From Eubacteriales bacterium (GTDB lineage: Bacteria > Bacillota > Clostridia > Lachnospirales > Lachnospiraceae): 35,219 bases of DNA. The DNA is taken from assembly GCA_030539395.1 (NCBI GenBank), contig JAUNSC010000033.1, forward strand, positions 1-35,219. The letters are read 5' to 3'. The notes under the pieces are model-generated. The model worked only from the letters and a program-made list of their open reading frames with translations, did not search any database and was not told where the DNA came from. Of the stretch, positions 25,404 through 35,219 are shown piece by piece. Every line of letters starts with the position of its first letter. The stretch's first letter is position 1. The translations under genes and the position numbers were made by a program.

Positions 25404-25778
25404 ATGGATTATCAGGTGTATCGTTTTTCTATAAAGGAACTGGCAGAAAACATCAGTCTGTTTTTACTTTTGGATACTGCGGTAAGCTGCCTGTTTTACA
25501 GATCATGGGCTGCATTTTTAACAGGGCTGCTCTTATGTCCGTTTTTCTTAAAATATAGGAGGGAAGTGTACAAAAAGAAACGGCAGCAGCAATTGTCAGA
25601 GCAGTTTCTGGAGGGAATGAAAGCCGTGGCAGTCTCTTTAGGAGCCGGGTATTCTATTGAGACAGCCTTTGAGGATGCGTTGGGGGAACTGAAGAATATT
25701 TATAATCAAGAGTTAATATGTAAAGGGTGGTTTCTCCACCCGAATACATATGACTGCGGCTCATTTGTGGTGAATTGA
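25404..25778 (+). pseudogene. tadB (pilus membrane platform), truncated by element insertion
   Basis: TadB is an inner-membrane platform protein of about 300 residues. Here only the first 103 or so are native: a membrane pair (about 15-48), KYRREVYKKKRQQQ and the T2SSF start QFLEGMKAVAVSLGAGYSIE followed by TAFEDALGELKNIYNQE. After about 25710 the frame reads element DNA for about 22 codons (LICKGWFLHPNTYDCG) and stops at 25778. The downstream half and tadC/pilin genes are not in view. The pilus is likely non-functional while the element is in place; excision might restore it. Confidence 0.85.
25725..25741. repeat. Small inverted repeat at the element's left end
   Basis: GGGTGG/CCACCC with a TTTCT loop, about 15 bases inside the inferred border. 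It may belong to the recombinase-binding end. Confidence 0.45.
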
Positions 25779-25852
25779 AAAGCAGTTGTAAGAAAGGAGC
25801 AGAAAAAGCCTTATAACCGCTGAAAATCAACACAAAAAGGAGTTGAAATGCT

Positions 25853-26224
25853 ATGAAATCTCTATTTGAGGAAATGGGCGGTACATACCGTCAAGTGGGC
25901 GATTACTTCATCCCCAACCTTGTTTTGCCGGATGACGGCGAATATCAGATAGGCAAATACGGGCGTATGCGCCGCACCTATCTGAAAGAGCATCGAAAAA
26001 TCCTCTACAATAACTATGTGTTGGAGGGAACGCTGTTCAAACACTTAGCCGAAATTGACCAAGCCTGCAACGAGCGTATGGAAATCATCGTATCCGCTAT
26101 GTCGGAGCAGGAGGGCGTGACCGAAGCACTCAAAGCGGCTGACCAAATGGAATGGGTACGCCGTAAAAACAGCATCCGCAACCGTGCGGAGGAAATCGTC
26201 TTGACCGAACTTGTATATGCTTAA
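25853..26224 (+). CDS. tnpV: TnpV-family transposon protein
   Basis: 123-residue protein that fits TnpV, an accessory protein of unknown role carried by Tn4451-type elements. Visible features: MKSLFEEMGGTYRQVGDYFI start, GKYGRMRRTYLKEHRK and a helical, charged C-terminal half ending IRNRAEEIVLTELVYA. AAGGAG lies 10 bases before ATG 25853; the nearer ATG 25848 meets a stop after one codon. First gene inside the element, on the side of the tadB junction. Confidence 0.8.
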   Translation: MKSLFEEMGGTYRQVGDYFIPNLVLPDDGEYQIGKYGRMRRTYLKEHRKILYNNYVLEGTLFKHLAEIDQACNERMEIIVSAMSEQEGVTEALKAADQMEWVRRKNSIRNRAEEIVLTELVYA

Positions 26225-30373: not shown

Positions 30374-30589
30374 ATGGTAAAAAACGAAAACAAGAACTTT
30401 GCTTATACCACCCACCGCATCGGCGGCACGATCTATAAGGTCAAAGTCGTGTTCAATGAAAGCGGCACAGAAACGATGGAAGATAAAATTTTACGAATTA
30501 TTCGCAATGAAGTTCACACAAATTGCGAAAATTATGATATAATAAATGCACCACAAATGAGCCGACAGTCTGAAAGGAGCGCATCATGA
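30374..30589 (+). CDS. tnpW: TnpW-family transposon protein
   Basis: 71-residue protein that fits TnpW, a small accessory protein of Tn4451-type elements. Visible core: YTTHRIGGTIYKVKVVFNES followed by GTETMEDKILRIIRNE, a beta-rich half then a helix. ATG 30374 is preferred over 30341 because GGAGG lies 10 bases upstream. Its end overlaps the recombinase start (ATGATGA), so the two are translationally coupled. Its 3' part also holds TATAAT (30538-30543), a possible extra promoter for the recombinase. Confidence 0.75.
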   Translation: MVKNENKNFAYTTHRIGGTIYKVKVVFNESGTETMEDKILRIIRNEVHTNCENYDIINAPQMSRQSERSAS

Positions 30590-32679
30590 TGAGCGTGAAA
30601 CAGACTGTGGGACAGGATCCCAATAAAATTACGGCATTGTACGAGAGACTTTCCCGTGACGATGACCAGGTTGGCGATAGCAACAGCATTGTCAATCAGA
30701 AAAAATACCTCGAAAGCTATGCCGAGCAGAGAGGCTACACGAATATTCAGCACTATACCGATGACGGTTGGAGCGGCGGCAATTTCAACCGTCCCGCATG
30801 GAAGCAGTTAGAGGCAGATATTGAAGCCGGTAAGGTTGCCCATGTGATCGTAAAGGACATGAGCCGAATCGGCAGAGATTATCTACAGACCGGTTTTTAC
30901 ACGGAAGTGTTCTTCCGTCAGCACGGCGTTCACTTTGTTGCGATTGCCAACAGCGTGGACAGCGATGACCAGAACAGCAACGAGTTTGCGCCGTTCCTCA
31001 ATATTATGAACGAATGGTATCTTCGTGATTTGAGCCGCAAACAGCGCACCGCTATCCGTGTAAAAGGCGAATCGGGCAAGCCTACCACCAACTGCGCTAT
31101 CTACGGCTACAAGAAGATGCCGGGTGACAAGTACAGTTGGTATATCGACGAGGAAGCCTCCGAGGTTGTCCGCAGGATATTCCGTCTGACCATCGAGGGC
31201 AAAGGCCCCTATGATATTGCCCGTATTCTCTATGACGATAAGGTGGAAACGCCCGCCGTTTACCTCGGTAAGCAGAAGAAAGGCGTTTGGAAAAGCAAAG
31301 AGGAATTTCCCAATCCGTATAACTGGAGTGGTTATATCGTTGGGAGCATCCTTTCCAAGCCCGAATATATGGGGCATACGGTCAACTTCCGTTCTCACAA
31401 GCAGTCTTACAAGGATAAGAACCCTGTGATGAATCCAAAAGAGGACTGGCTGATTTTTGAGAATACCCACGAAGCCATCGTGGATAAGGAAACGTGGGAG
31501 CTTGCACAGAAGCTGCGAAAGACACCGAGACGGCATGACACGATAGGTGAAGCAAATCCCTTGACGGGACTTCTGTTCTGTGCCGACTGCGGAGCAAAAA
31601 TGTATAATCAGCGCACACGAGGGTCTGACAGCAAGCCTTACCCCTCCGATGCCTACGAGTGTTCCACCTATAAGTTGGCAGGACAGAAACGCTCTGCCGC
31701 CTGCCGCAATCATCATATTTCCACAAAAGCACTCCGAGAGCTTATTTTGAACACCATTCGCACCGTCAGCACCTATGCCATTTCCAATCAAGACGAGTTT
31801 ATGGAAAAGGTGCGCTCTGCTTCTCAGATCAAGCAAAAGGAAGCGGCAAAGGAAACCAAACGGAAGCTAAACAAGGACAAGAAGCGTATTGCCGAGCTGG
31901 ACAATATCATTAAAAAGCTATATGAATCCTTTGCCATCGGGCGCATTACCGATGAACGCTTTGATACCCTGCTTGCCGAATACGAAGCCGAGCAGAAATC
32001 CTTGCAGACATCCGTGGCAGAAGCCGAACAGCGGGTATCTTCTTTTGAGGAAGATACCGTCCGTGTGGAGCAGTTTATGGAGCTGGCGAGAAAATACACC
32101 GACTTTTCCGAGCTGACCACGATGATGATTAACGAGTTTATCGACAAGATCATTGTCCACGCTCCCGAAAGGATTGACGGAGATCGTGTGCAGGAAGTGG
32201 AGATTTATCTGAAATTCATCGGGCATTTTGAGCTTCCCGCACCGGAGCTGACCGAGGAAGAAATCCAGCGGCAGGAGTTCTTGAAGAAAGAACGTGCCCG
32301 CAGCCGTGAACGCTACCAAAAGCTAAAATCCGGCGAACGCACCGTAGGTGTTCCCATCACGCAGACCTGCAAATGCTGCGGCAAGACCTTTGAAGCAAGG
32401 TCAACGGCAAAACTGTTCTGCGATGTGAATTGCCGAGCAAGGTATTATCGGCAGGAAGCCGCCAAAGAGCGAAGCCGTGAGATCGCTTGCGAGAACTGCG
32501 GAAAGACCTTTACCACAATGAGGTCGGATGTCAAATACTGCTGTGATGATTGCCGCTATGAAGGGCATCTCAAAGGGCAGCGGATACGCAATGCGGCAAA
32601 CCGAGCGAAGGAAAAAGAGTCGGTATTTCTTGATGCTCCACCTACCGAAGAAACCCAACAGGAACAGAAAACAGCATAA
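30586..32679 (+). CDS. Large serine recombinase (TnpX-type) with two extra C-terminal zinc fingers
   Basis: 697-residue site-specific recombinase that would excise and insert the element. Resolvase domain with catalytic Ser23 in LYERLSRDDDQ, plus DGWSGGNFNRPAW and KDMSRIGRDYLQTGFYTE. Then the recombinase domain (CAIYGYKKMPGDKYSW, about 166-300), the zinc ribbon CADCGAKM...CSTYKL...CRNHH (about 332-375), a coiled coil (about 410-500) and a DUF4368-like region (about 510-570). Beyond that are two fingers, CKCC-x13-CDVNC (about 587-608) and CENC-x13-CCDDC (about 633-654), which typical TnpX-type proteins as I know them do not have. AAGGAGC lies just before the start. It is mid-element as seen here rather than at an end. 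Confidence 0.95.
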   Translation: MMSVKQTVGQDPNKITALYERLSRDDDQVGDSNSIVNQKKYLESYAEQRGYTNIQHYTDDGWSGGNFNRPAWKQLEADIEAGKVAHVIVKDMSRIGRDYLQTGFYTEVFFRQHGVHFVAIANSVDSDDQNSNEFAPFLNIMNEWYLRDLSRKQRTAIRVKGESGKPTTNCAIYGYKKMPGDKYSWYIDEEASEVVRRIFRLTIEGKGPYDIARILYDDKVETPAVYLGKQKKGVWKSKEEFPNPYNWSGYIVGSILSKPEYMGHTVNFRSHKQSYKDKNPVMNPKEDWLIFENTHEAIVDKETWELAQKLRKTPRRHDTIGEANPLTGLLFCADCGAKMYNQRTRGSDSKPYPSDAYECSTYKLAGQKRSAACRNHHISTKALRELILNTIRTVSTYAISNQDEFMEKVRSASQIKQKEAAKETKRKLNKDKKRIAELDNIIKKLYESFAIGRITDERFDTLLAEYEAEQKSLQTSVAEAEQRVSSFEEDTVRVEQFMELARKYTDFSELTTMMINEFIDKIIVHAPERIDGDRVQEVEIYLKFIGHFELPAPELTEEEIQRQEFLKKERARSRERYQKLKSGERTVGVPITQTCKCCGKTFEARSTAKLFCDVNCRARYYRQEAAKERSREIACENCGKTFTTMRSDVKYCCDDCRYEGHLKGQRIRNAANRAKEKESVFLDAPPTEETQQEQKTA

Positions 32680-32687
32680 CGATATTT

Positions 32688-32717
32688 GAAGCGGATTGAT
32701 GTATGTCGATCCGCTTC
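32688..32717 (+). terminator. First hairpin after the recombinase
   Basis: GAAGCGGAT/ATCCGCTTC stem (32688-32696 with 32709-32717) followed by TTCTGTTTT. Modest T-run; it probably acts with the stronger terminator just downstream. Confidence 0.6.
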
Positions 32718-32725
32718 TTCTGTTT

Positions 32726-32757
32726 TCAAGTGGACAAAATATCCACTTGATTTTTTA
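32726..32757 (+). terminator. Strong intrinsic terminator, also first member of the palindrome family
   Basis: Perfect 9-bp stem TCAAGTGGA/TCCACTTGA (32726-32734 with 32742-32750), then seven T. The arms keep the AAGT-N13-ACTT frame of the palindromes at 32821-33110. Confidence 0.85.
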
Positions 32758-32820
32758 TGCCTGTTTTGCAATCAATGTATCATTTTGAAACTTTGATTCT
32801 TGATGTTTTTCGAGGTGATT

Positions 32821-33110
32821 GGTAAGTTGCCAATCTGACAACTTAGCAAATCGTCCGTGGCAAAGTGCCAAGTTGGCACTTTACCAAAATCGCTACCTGT
32901 TTATTTGGCAAGTTCCCATTTTGGGAACTTGCCGTGATCCCCGTCCGACTGTGTGGTAAGTTCCCGTTTTGGGAACTTACCATATCTAATATGGCAAGTT
33001 CCCAATTTGACAACTTGCCTGCCCACCGTTGAGCCGGTATTTATCAAGTTCCCAATTTGGGGACTTGATATTTTCCCCACAACTGAAAGTTTCCAATCTG
33101 GGAACTTTCA
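32821..33110. repeat. Array of seven palindromes, candidate parC centromere or iterons
   Basis: Palindromes at 32821-32847, 32858-32886, 32907-32933, 32954-32982, 32993-33019, 33042-33070 and 33084-33110. Each has arms of about 8-13 bases around a short centre. Six keep AAGT-N13-ACTT; the second has N11. Arms change symmetrically (GGC/GCC, GGT/ACC, ATC/GAT, TGA/TCA at the outer ends). Centres are 38, 48, 48, 38, 50 and 41 bases apart. No gene lies in 32680-33163. The position just before parM suggests a ParR-binding centromere and autoregulatory operator; a replication origin or recombination site is also possible. Confidence 0.85.
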
Positions 33111-33163
33111 CTCATACCAATCAATATTTTTTTATCGCCGCAAAGCGGCAGAAAGGAAACTCT

Positions 33164-34105
33164 ATGAATTTTATGAACAACTACAATAACACCAATCCCA
33201 TCATCATCGGTATCGACCACGGCTACGGCAACATCAAGACCGCCCACTGCTGTTTCAAGACGGGCGTTGCCGCCTATGACAAAGAGCCGACCTTCAAAAG
33301 CAATCTGCTTGTCTATGAAAGCAGATATTATCTCATCGGTGAGGAACACAAGGAGTTTATCTCCGACAAAATGACAGACAGCGACTACTATATTCTCACT
33401 CTCGCAGCTGTTGCCCGTGAACTGAACATCCGAAAGCTGACCGCTGCCCGTGTCCACCTTGCTGCGGGACTTCCTCTGACTTGGGTGAGTGAACAGAAGG
33501 ACAGCTTCAAGGCATATCTCCTGCAAAACGACAGCGCCGACTTTACGTTCAAGGGCGTTGACTACCACGTTGATTTTGCCGGTGCAGATATTTTCCCGCA
33601 GGGCTTTTCTGCGGTTGCAGACAAGCTCCGTGAGTTCAAGGGTATCAATATGCTCTGCGATATTGGCAACGGCACGATGAACGTCATGTATATCAACGAG
33701 TGCCGTCCTCTTGCGAAAAAGTGCTTCACCGAAAAGTACGGCACCAATCAGTGTATGCTTGCGGTGCGTGAAAATCTGATGAAGCAGTTTGGCGTATCGG
33801 TGGATGAAACTGTCCTTGAGCGTGTCATCCGTCACGGCACTGCAGACATCAGCCAGCGTTATCTGACAGCCATCCGTGATACCGCAACCGAGTATGCCGA
33901 GGGCATCTTCCGCAGACTGCGTGAGCATGAGTATGATCCCGAACTGATGCGTCTGTATGTGGTGGGCGGCGGGAGCTGTATTCTCAAAAACTTCGGCAGC
34001 TATGATAAAGACCGTGTTATCATCAACGACGATATTTGCGCTACCGCAAAGGGATATGAGGTGCTTGCCGAGCAGAAGCAGAACAGAAAAGGCGGCATCG
34101 TATGA
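33164..34105 (+). CDS. ParM/StbA-like actin-family segregation protein
   Basis: 313-residue actin-like ATPase. Phosphate-1 motif IIIGIDHGYGNIKTA (about 12-26), phosphate-2 LCDIGNGTMNVMYI, adenosine motif YVVGGGSCIL. It should form filaments that move plasmid-like DNA. ATG 33164 is chosen because AAAGG precedes it and the actin fold begins shortly after. Its stop overlaps the next start (ATGA), as in parMR operons, and a palindrome array lies directly upstream. Segregation genes in an integrating element suggest a circular, perhaps replicating, excised form. Confidence 0.88.
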   Translation: MNFMNNYNNTNPIIIGIDHGYGNIKTAHCCFKTGVAAYDKEPTFKSNLLVYESRYYLIGEEHKEFISDKMTDSDYYILTLAAVARELNIRKLTAARVHLAAGLPLTWVSEQKDSFKAYLLQNDSADFTFKGVDYHVDFAGADIFPQGFSAVADKLREFKGINMLCDIGNGTMNVMYINECRPLAKKCFTEKYGTNQCMLAVRENLMKQFGVSVDETVLERVIRHGTADISQRYLTAIRDTATEYAEGIFRRLREHEYDPELMRLYVVGGGSCILKNFGSYDKDRVIINDDICATAKGYEVLAEQKQNRKGGIV

Positions 34106-34458
34106 AGCAGATCTACACGACAACCCTGCGCTTAAATCTTTCGGATGAGGATGACTGCCGAGCCTACGAGCATTTACAGCGGATGGATAAGAAGCAATAT
34201 CGCTCCTACAGCAAGGCGATTGTTACCGCCATCAATGACCACTTTGAACGGCAGGCACGGCTTGCTTCCGATCCCTATCTGGAAACCCGTGAAAAAGAGG
34301 ATGCTTTTCTTCGGCGTGTGACAGAAGCCATCGAGCAGGGCTTGCGATTTGCACCTGTCGGTATGCCGATGTTCACACCGCCTGCTGCCGTTGAAACTCC
34401 GTCTGTCGAGGATGACGAGAATATTTCGGCGGCATTGGACTTCGCTGACAGCTTCTGA
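34102..34458 (+). CDS. Small ParR-like partner of ParM
   Basis: 118 residues. The N-terminus TTTLRLNLSDEDDCRAYEHL followed by YSKAIVTAINDHFE fits a ribbon-helix-helix DNA-binding fold like ParR. The C-terminal tail is acidic and flexible (VEDDENISAALDFADSF), as expected for a ParM-contacting end. Overlaps parM by four bases. Likely DNA target: the palindromes upstream of parM. Family is inferred from context and pattern, not from strong motif identity. Confidence 0.7.
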   Translation: MKQIYTTTLRLNLSDEDDCRAYEHLQRMDKKQYRSYSKAIVTAINDHFERQARLASDPYLETREKEDAFLRRVTEAIEQGLRFAPVGMPMFTPPAAVETPSVEDDENISAALDFADSF

Positions 34459-34468
34459 TACTACTATT

Positions 34469-34511
34469 GCCCTCGTTTGGTATTACTGCGATACCAAATG
34501 GGGGCATTTTT
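34469..34511 (+). terminator. Terminator of the parM operon built on a TTTGGTAT palindrome
   Basis: GCCCTCGTTTGGTAT pairs with ATACCAAATGGGGGC (34469-34483 with 34491-34505) through 15 pairs including two G-U, 7-nt loop, then ATTTTT. Confidence 0.75.
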
Positions 34512-34541
34512 GCTACTACAACAATTTTTAGAAAAAGCATG

Positions 34542-34567
34542 ATACCAAACGGACGGATATTTGGTAT
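34542..34567. repeat. Second palindrome with the same 8-base arms
   Basis: ATACCAAA (34542-34549) and TTTGGTAT (34560-34567) repeat the arms of the terminator at 34476-34498 in the opposite order. It lies 50 bases before the DUF3847 gene and may be an operator for it. Confidence 0.6.
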
Positions 34568-34616
34568 TACGCTGCTATCAAATAACCCTATTTTTACTAC
34601 CACAGGAGGATTTTCT

Positions 34617-35196: not shown

Positions 35197-35219
35197 ATGG
35201 CGATCTACCACTTGGAAGC
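35197..35219 (+). CDS. Start of MobA/MobL-family relaxase (cut by window end)
   Basis: Only MAIYHLEA is visible, but this is the usual N-terminus of MobA/MobL relaxases in Firmicute elements, and the upstream DUF3847 gene and MOBQ-type oriT agree. It would nick oriT and lead the strand in conjugal transfer using another element's machinery. AAAGGACGGTGAG precedes the ATG. Confidence 0.7.

Follow-up and report, generated by a model that had tools for sequence, protein, structure and literature searches.

A nine-palindrome array between a serine recombinase gene and parM as candidate sites of ParB-family proteins

The stretch of DNA analysed here (the window) is 35,219 nucleotides long and is the whole of a contig in an incomplete assembly, ending at position 35219. 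A large serine recombinase gene (30586-32679, plus strand) encodes the Pfam domains Resolvase, Recombinase, Zn_ribbon_recom and DUF4368 and, as judged by eye, two extra zinc-ribbon-like modules at the C-terminus. It is followed on the same strand by genes for a ParM-like actin (33164-34105; ALP_N and MreB-like_C) and for a ParR-like protein of 118 residues (34102-34458), whose N-terminus looks by eye like a ribbon-helix-helix fold. The gap between the recombinase gene and parM is filled by an array of palindromes, which has both the ParM-like and the ParR-like gene as neighbours.

A cap-aware scan finds nine palindromes in this gap, none of them assigned to a strand, with centre-to-centre spacings of 46, 50, 38, 48, 48, 38, 50 and 41 bp. 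In each, a 3-bp centre separates two 9-bp half-sites in inverted orientation, which are mostly AAGTNNNCA. The palindromes have the centre CA-NNN-TG in common, except that palindrome 6 has G for A and palindrome 1 has TA for TG, and the outer AAGT/ACTT is present in most of the nine. Palindrome 1 (32726-32750, centre 32738) has the half-sites AAGTGGACA and AAGTGGATA with a T tract next to it, and palindrome 2 (32770-32798, centre 32784), with CATTTTG in its middle, is decayed and identical in the related locus L069. Palindrome 3 (32820-32848, centre 32834) joins AAGTTGCCA to AAGTTGTCA, whereas palindrome 4 (32858-32886, centre 32872) carries AAAGTGCCA and palindrome 5 (32907-32933, centre 32920) AAGTTCCCA on both sides. 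The remaining half-site pairs are AAGTTCCCG and AAGTTCCCA in palindrome 6 (32954-32982, centre 32968), AAGTTCCCA and AAGTTGTCA in the hybrid palindrome 7 (32993-33019, centre 33006), AAGTTCCCA and AAGTCCCCA in palindrome 8 (33042-33070, centre 33056) and AAGTTTCCA and AAGTTCCCA in palindrome 9 (33084-33110, centre 33097). The pattern AAGTNNNCANNNTGNNNACTT, with up to two mismatches allowed, occurs seven times in the window, always within the recombinase–parM gap, while 100 shuffles give a mean of 1.5 and a maximum of 5 occurrences. A DNA search of the same genome found no copy of the array outside this gap.

As an observation, the palindrome family of the original prediction is confirmed and extended. 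Seven palindromes had been counted, which sit where they were placed; the total rises to nine when palindrome 1 and a weaker pair are included. This weaker pair is palindrome 2, a decayed member of the array that fills a supposed gap of 96 bp, and the spacing is 38-50 bp throughout. Palindrome 4, which had been set apart by a shorter spacer of 11 nucleotides, is indeed a palindrome, but its centre-aligned layout is the same as that of the others.

The two arms of a palindrome change together. This had been claimed from the window, with a proposal to look for arm covariation in related elements, and the covariation is found there as well. Among 25 distinct sites from ParM loci, the window and two further loci (L141 and L142), chosen without symmetry by AAGT, CA, TG and ACTT only, 59 of the 75 inner-triplet positions are symmetric against 30.5 in shuffles, and none of 20,000 shuffles reaches 59. 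With the same selection the inner triplets are fully paired in 12 of 25 sites, against 4.1 expected. In the window, identity between the two arms of one palindrome is 8.0 of 9, a value inflated by the fact that the nine palindromes were first found by symmetry, against 5.49 of 9 with the arms of other palindromes (0 of 50,000 permutations); the corresponding values in the viral locus L234 are 8.0 and 3.7. Position 11 is paired in 64 of 67 distinct noncoding sites, by all four pair types and against 34% expected, in a set that was found by symmetry and whose inner positions are therefore inflated. The array thus has the short inverted repeats with dyad-symmetric half-sites that characterise parS and the operators of ParB-family proteins. 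A single consensus, as expected of the sites of one parS system, is not shared by the sites of the window array: left-left identity between sites of one array is 5.75 of 9 in the window and 3.62 of 9 in L234.

Relatives of the ParM locus were taken from one scan of genome contigs (79 loci, from the best 80 of 86 matches), and L058 and L076, in which the match starts late in ParM, were left out. Palindrome copy number ranges from 0 to 9 across these loci, and therefore the array is dispensable. Even among elements with 90-98% identical ParM, there are no palindromes at the threshold in four (L057, L066, L007 and L008), one in L006, six in L069 and nine in the window. Sampled genome searches returned matches to a loose AAGT pattern in 9 of 60 genomes, chance-looking singles included, and matches to AAGTGGNCANNNTGNCCACTT in 4 of 391 genomes, in two of which they lie in arrays. 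Upstream of parM, the five nearly identical loci L015-L018 and L022 (Faecalibacterium and others) carry a different CCGTACA repeat set in place of an AAGT array. A short GCCGC-N3-6-GCGGC repeat at the start of parM is present in only 33 of 78 loci, and many palindrome units have outer GTTACG/CGTAAC edges.

Palindrome 1 can be followed through four near-identical elements, in which its flanks are nearly constant (one or two differences in 75). In five of the six pairwise comparisons its 13-nt core shows 4 to 8 differences, and between the window and L005 it shows none; the core of the window differs from those of L069 and L004 despite near-identical flanks. Because the flanks are kept while the core is changed, replacement seems to affect whole cores, with the two arms exchanged at once.

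Palindromes of the same kind are found inside genes. Viral contigs scanned for two of the array palindromes gave 36 loci, eight of which, including two pairs that are alike, have the palindrome within a ParB-like gene, in the linker between the N-domain and the helix-turn-helix (HTH). Most of the viral matches to these two fixed palindromes are outside ParB-like genes, and others look like terminators. A phage-type set of ParB-like genes was then fetched by protein, keeping the best 80 of 586 matches in order of their similarity to L107, a reference whose own linker carries a AAGTGGTCA site. A palindrome score of at least 8 is reached in 28 of 53 non-redundant linkers of this set, compared with 2 of 2,650 codon-shuffled linkers; the motif search had missed 24 of 85 ParB-like loci. 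The encoded linker peptides are widely different, and 4 of 34 sites (score of at least 7) are in another codon phase, so that the DNA and not the peptide is kept at the in-gene sites. We take the phage-type proteins to be ParB-like partly by familiar motifs, and profile A1 reaches ParB genes at E 1e-4 to 1e-10. A Pfam scan of L107, L118, L137 and part of L146 gave no ParB family. One phage-type protein is fused to MT-A70, and phage fusions of the ParB-CTPase fold to methyltransferases are described in PMC12704722.

A second set consists of ParB genes from the Clostridial genomes that carry the ParM loci and arrays. Of 17 distinct linkers at the same place in these genes, 15 hold a palindrome (score of at least 7). 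All three Clostridial ParBs that were scanned match Pfam ParB_N; two pass the cut-off of HTH_ParB and one stays below it. Outside genes of the NQLGRRN ParB-like type, L120 (3818-3888) and L113 (1555-1640) have two CA-NNN-TG palindromes each in other frames, those of L113 coming after an HTH-like stretch.

If an HTH homodimer reads its own palindrome, the bases of the palindrome are predicted to follow the recognition helix. Consistently, across 35 phage-type genes the likeness of the arms rises with that of the 14-residue recognition helix (r = 0.26, 0 of 2,000 permutations), whereas no correlation is seen for the N-domain (r = 0.04) or for the segments that precede (0.08) and follow (0.07) the helix. 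In 46 thinned genes, the leading pairs of helix index and base are 7-3 (z 12.5), 6-7 (z 10.7), 1-4 (z 9.7) and 3-5 (z 9.2); three further pairs with z of 5.3 to 5.9 are neighbours of these four, and the rest reach at most 3.7. Residue 7 of the helix in the phage set goes with base 3 as R:C in 34 of 35 cases and as N/S/T:A in 10 of 11. The cap follows this residue, with CA..TG for R and AA..TT for N, S or T. The phage set supplied the rules for indices 3 and 7, which were then counted in the Clostridial set, some members of which are near relatives of one another and part of which had been inspected before counting; base 3 is R:C in 14 of 14 and K:A in 1 of 1, and base 5 is R/K:G in 6 of 6, N:C in 4 of 4, D:T in 2 of 2, E:C in 2 of 2 and T:A in 1 of 1. 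Because their bases follow the recognition helix, the in-gene palindromes are probably the ParB-type protein's own parS-like site. Such palindromes before the HTH, with a readable helix-to-base code, are seen in the parB-type genes of L146-L225 (viral contigs) and L262-L321 (genomes). A parS site inside spo0J is known in Bacillus subtilis. No mention of it was found in the accessible part of PMC7333895.

A site sequence set by the helix of a ParB-family protein is thus seen for in-gene sites in 46 phage-type and 15 Clostridial genes, and the window array is connected to them only indirectly, by half-site identity. When 58 half-sites of arrays are compared with 54 in-gene ones (38 genes, without the seed gene), eight nine-mers are identical, against 2.9 expected, and 2 of 2,000 column shuffles reach eight. 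Two half-sites of the window, AAGTTCCCA and AAGTTGCCA, are among these eight. By the helix rules, palindromes 5 to 9 would be matched by a helix that has Asn at index 3 and no basic residue at index 6, and palindrome 1 by another one, a prediction judged by a few cases (L118, L124, L126, L132, L193 and the ParB of L266). As different helices are called for, one array seems to hold several addresses, and L234, with at least 12 sites of different arms, is the extreme of such mixing. With their AAGT, the arms of the array are closer to phage-type sites than to those of the Clostridial ParBs, which are of the TTC type.

In a parS system, the cognate ParB is expected to be encoded by the same element. 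No ParB match is found on the contig of the window, and in its own genome a single match (E 2e-27) covers the first part of a ParB. The contig of L046 (22,935 bp) seems to carry its own ParB with an in-gene palindrome, judged by a contig of equal length in that genome, and one half-site core is shared. Same-genome matching is not significant among the nine genomes that have both an array and ParBs with in-gene palindromes, a core being shared in three of nine against 2.2 when permuted (p = 0.38). A stretch of 36 nt round palindrome 1 matches a ParB-like gene of an Oscillatoria plasmid (91.7%, E 8e-4), and the minus strand reads KSSGYFVHLKTEEA there, close to the linker of the Oscillatoria protein; this may be a coincidence, or it may mean that a site and its flanks were captured together.

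We favour, with a probability of roughly two in three, the reading that the array is a set of nine duplex sites of the parS or KorB-operator kind, read by homodimers of ParB-family HTH proteins. We infer that the window array is bound by ParB-family proteins and holds sites for more than one specificity, with TTCCC, TTGYC, TGGAC and GTGCC cores. A homodimer would read both half-sites with the same recognition helix, and retargeting a site to a different helix would require the same change in both halves; the arms would change together because the identical helices of one homodimer read both. Sites within one array differ, which a single dimeric protein leaves unexplained. In the most likely role, ParB-family proteins would nucleate at the array and the element would be partitioned or regulated by a ParB, supplied either by the element itself beyond the contig end or by a co-resident plasmid, integrative and conjugative element (ICE) or phage. 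Known ParB biology would allow partition, regulation by spreading, or titration. The sites may serve the element's own ParB, with tolerance of drift, as the contig of L046 suggests, or they may capture foreign ParBs, as described for SGI1 with the IncC ParB in PMC10954446.

Several known systems resemble the array in part. KorB sites share one consensus, whereas the sites of the window array do not. The KorB operators of RP4/RK2, 12 palindromic 13-bp sites according to PMC10954446, otherwise offer a likeness in that many palindromic sites serve a ParB-family HTH protein, the presumed reader here. As for parS of ParABS, PMC7383237 describes a recognition code of ParB and Noc in which R201 goes with cytosine 6 and Q173 with adenine 1; the array would be similar in consisting of duplex sites for a ParB-family HTH whose bases are set by few residues. 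In contrast to parS as presented there, the window array would mix many specificities, its sites are hypervariable between elements, and relatives have the site within the parB-type linker itself.

A more specific version of the favoured reading is that the array is a multi-address mimic of parS on a small mobilizable element, which would ride on or titrate the ParBs of co-resident plasmids, ICEs and phages; we regard this as tentative and as having the odds against it. Its model is SGI1, a mobilizable island whose parS-like inverted repeats capture the ParB of the IncC plasmid, stabilise SGI1 and expel the helper (PMC10954446). The likeness would be a mobilizable element with inverted repeats that mimic the parS of another element. 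SGI1 has two such sites in that account, whereas the window element has nine, made up of several types of half-site, and same-genome matching gave the non-significant result reported above. If this version is true, arm diversity would be a record of past or alternative partners, and the helix-to-base code would predict the partner of each site from sequence. Should the mixed array capture foreign ParBs, the strategy of SGI1 would be widened from one helper to several, and mobilizable elements would be tied to the partition systems of the phages and plasmids around them. More generally, a ParB-family protein that has its own site inside its gene before the HTH may have a DNA specificity readable from sequence alone, under the same rules in both gene sets, and which protein reads which site of a mobile-element array would become testable. 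The literature consulted (mostly titles and abstract openings, with no subscription journals or preprints) contained no mixed parS arrays or coded in-linker sites that we recognised, and the mixed-address array and the decodable in-linker sites are new to us.

The palindromes might instead be DNA hairpins or cruciforms selected for structure, as a single-stranded signal for transfer or replication that is recognised by shape with its CA-NNN-TG cap. In agreement with this, stems vary while pairing and cap are kept, arms differ among the palindromes of one array, and the single-stranded DNA of 32715-33125 folds with z = -12.3. The cap, however, follows helix residue 7, and other stem positions follow residues 1, 3 and 6. 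Since signals read by shape would not vary with a recognition helix, the code counts against hairpins of that kind, and we consider this explanation improbable. The hairpin-based single-strand signal put forward originally is likewise not supported, nor is one in RNA: mismatches show no strand bias, and bases in parB-type genes follow the recognition helix of the protein.

Quite improbable, too, is an origin without any selection, in which quasi-palindromes would have had their arms homogenised by template switching during replication. Template switching homogenises the arms of short inverted repeats and inverts their spacers, also in genes, as stated in PMC8794818 and PMC8604942; L021 has AAA and TTT centres with the same arms, and the changed core of palindrome 1 within near-identical flanks would fit as well. 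Nevertheless, pure template switching was rejected, since it leaves the code, the cap and the location in the parB-type linker unexplained, as it does the half-sites common to unrelated contexts. It may still assist in carrying a change over between the two arms. A self-moving family of mobile repeats is disfavoured by the fixed place in parB-type linkers and by the helix code.

An unusually palindromic parC, the centromere bound by the ParR of the adjacent operon, was among the original proposals. The array is found immediately before parM, where parC usually lies (PMC9426499), and the 118-residue protein looks ParR-like; its structure model has pLDDT 73, and the best fold match in PDB is ParR of pB171 at E 4.4. 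No Pfam family was assigned to this protein, and the fold search gave no match below E 4. According to PMC9426499, parC usually consists of direct repeats that are bound by ribbon-helix-helix ParR upstream of parM; the array shares this position, whereas its repeats are inverted and are missing from close relatives of the operon. Four relatives (L007, L008, L010 and L066) keep parMR, with 85-93% amino acid identity in ParM and 69-76% in ParR, and have no palindromes, which is the observation that had been named as speaking against a centromere. Conversely, L141, L142 and L234 have arrays beside zinc-ribbon genes in fetched stretches that contain no parM. Repeats shared between operons lie downstream of parR instead: nine octamers YRNTAYYA, seven on the plus and two on the minus strand, extend from the parR stop codon to DUF3847 (34456-34602). 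This motif, which was derived by visual inspection of the window and its near relatives, occurs 3.6 times per 178 nt after parR in 60 loci, against 0.35 in shuffled sequence; its density is alike in array-less (3.2) and array-bearing (4.2) loci, and 11 of the 60 loci have none. Because four parMR relatives do without palindromes and the octamer tracks the operon better, the array is unlikely to be the ParR centromere, to which we give a low probability. The octamers are a possible and better candidate for parC, the ParR site, and would be separate from the array. The idea of a palindromic centromere came close in kind, while the partner would be of the ParB/parS type instead of ParR.

Equally unlikely is that the palindromes serve as operators not for a ParB-family protein but for the zinc-ribbon tail of the recombinase itself. 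At least one palindrome is present in 17 of 34 loci with a zinc-ribbon tail reading frame upstream, against 7 of 40 without it (p = 0.0055), in a count where five of the seven are near-identical copies, L015-L018 and L022 with their CCGTACA repeat are each entered as one palindrome, and four loci with less than 600 bp upstream are left out. Some tails also encode a palindrome in frame. Yet the other 17 of the 34 loci with a tail lack palindromes, sites inside one array differ, and the helix-to-base code was observed for ParB-type helices. A search of 398 genomes with the zinc-ribbon alignment A2 gave 0 matches at E 1e-12, an outcome that by the tool's own warning carries no weight. The tail of the recombinase (32305-32568) is related (E 3.8e-9) to a small zinc-ribbon protein encoded ahead of another array, and among 28 viral loci with related zinc ribbons three (L233, L234 and L247) have a palindrome score of at least 8 within 250 nt, those of L233 and L234 with a CA/TG cap.

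RNA hairpins in a recombinase–parM transcript, acting in attenuation or processing, are unlikely and the least probable reading of all: the palindromes do lie between two same-strand genes and palindrome 1 is terminator-like, but G.T and A.C mismatches are equally frequent on the sense strand of 67 sites (18 and 17), without the wobble preference that tolerance of G.U over A.C would give, and across ten related loci no Rfam family attained its gathering score, while the window's three weak matches all fell far short of theirs. Palindrome 1 is the only one to scan as terminator-like, and it is the second such hairpin after the recombinase gene; the first, an intrinsic-terminator-like hairpin 3' of this gene at 32688-32717 on the plus strand, is outside the palindrome family. 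This corrects the earlier assignment of the recombinase terminator to the palindrome family, and a coupling of recombinase readthrough to partition was rejected, because this other hairpin precedes the sole terminator-like palindrome.

Some observations concern the surroundings of the array. The zinc-ribbon tail (32266-32679 in the window) is just 72-75% identical in L069, L005, L004 and L057, whereas the recombinase core is 93-94% and ParM 96-98% identical in the same relatives, which makes the tail hypervariable beside the array. Palindrome units occur in frame at the C-terminus of zinc-ribbon reading frames, as VTDKPSAQNENLR in L011 and as two units in L142. At 850-2300 of L234 (IMGVR_UViG_650377940_000003), at least 12 palindromes with differing arms flank a small zinc-ribbon gene beside a frame that looks relaxase-like by eye. 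At the other side of the window element, a host gene at 25404-25853, which by eye we take to be TadB-like, seems to be truncated at about 25740-25778, where the element may have its left end.
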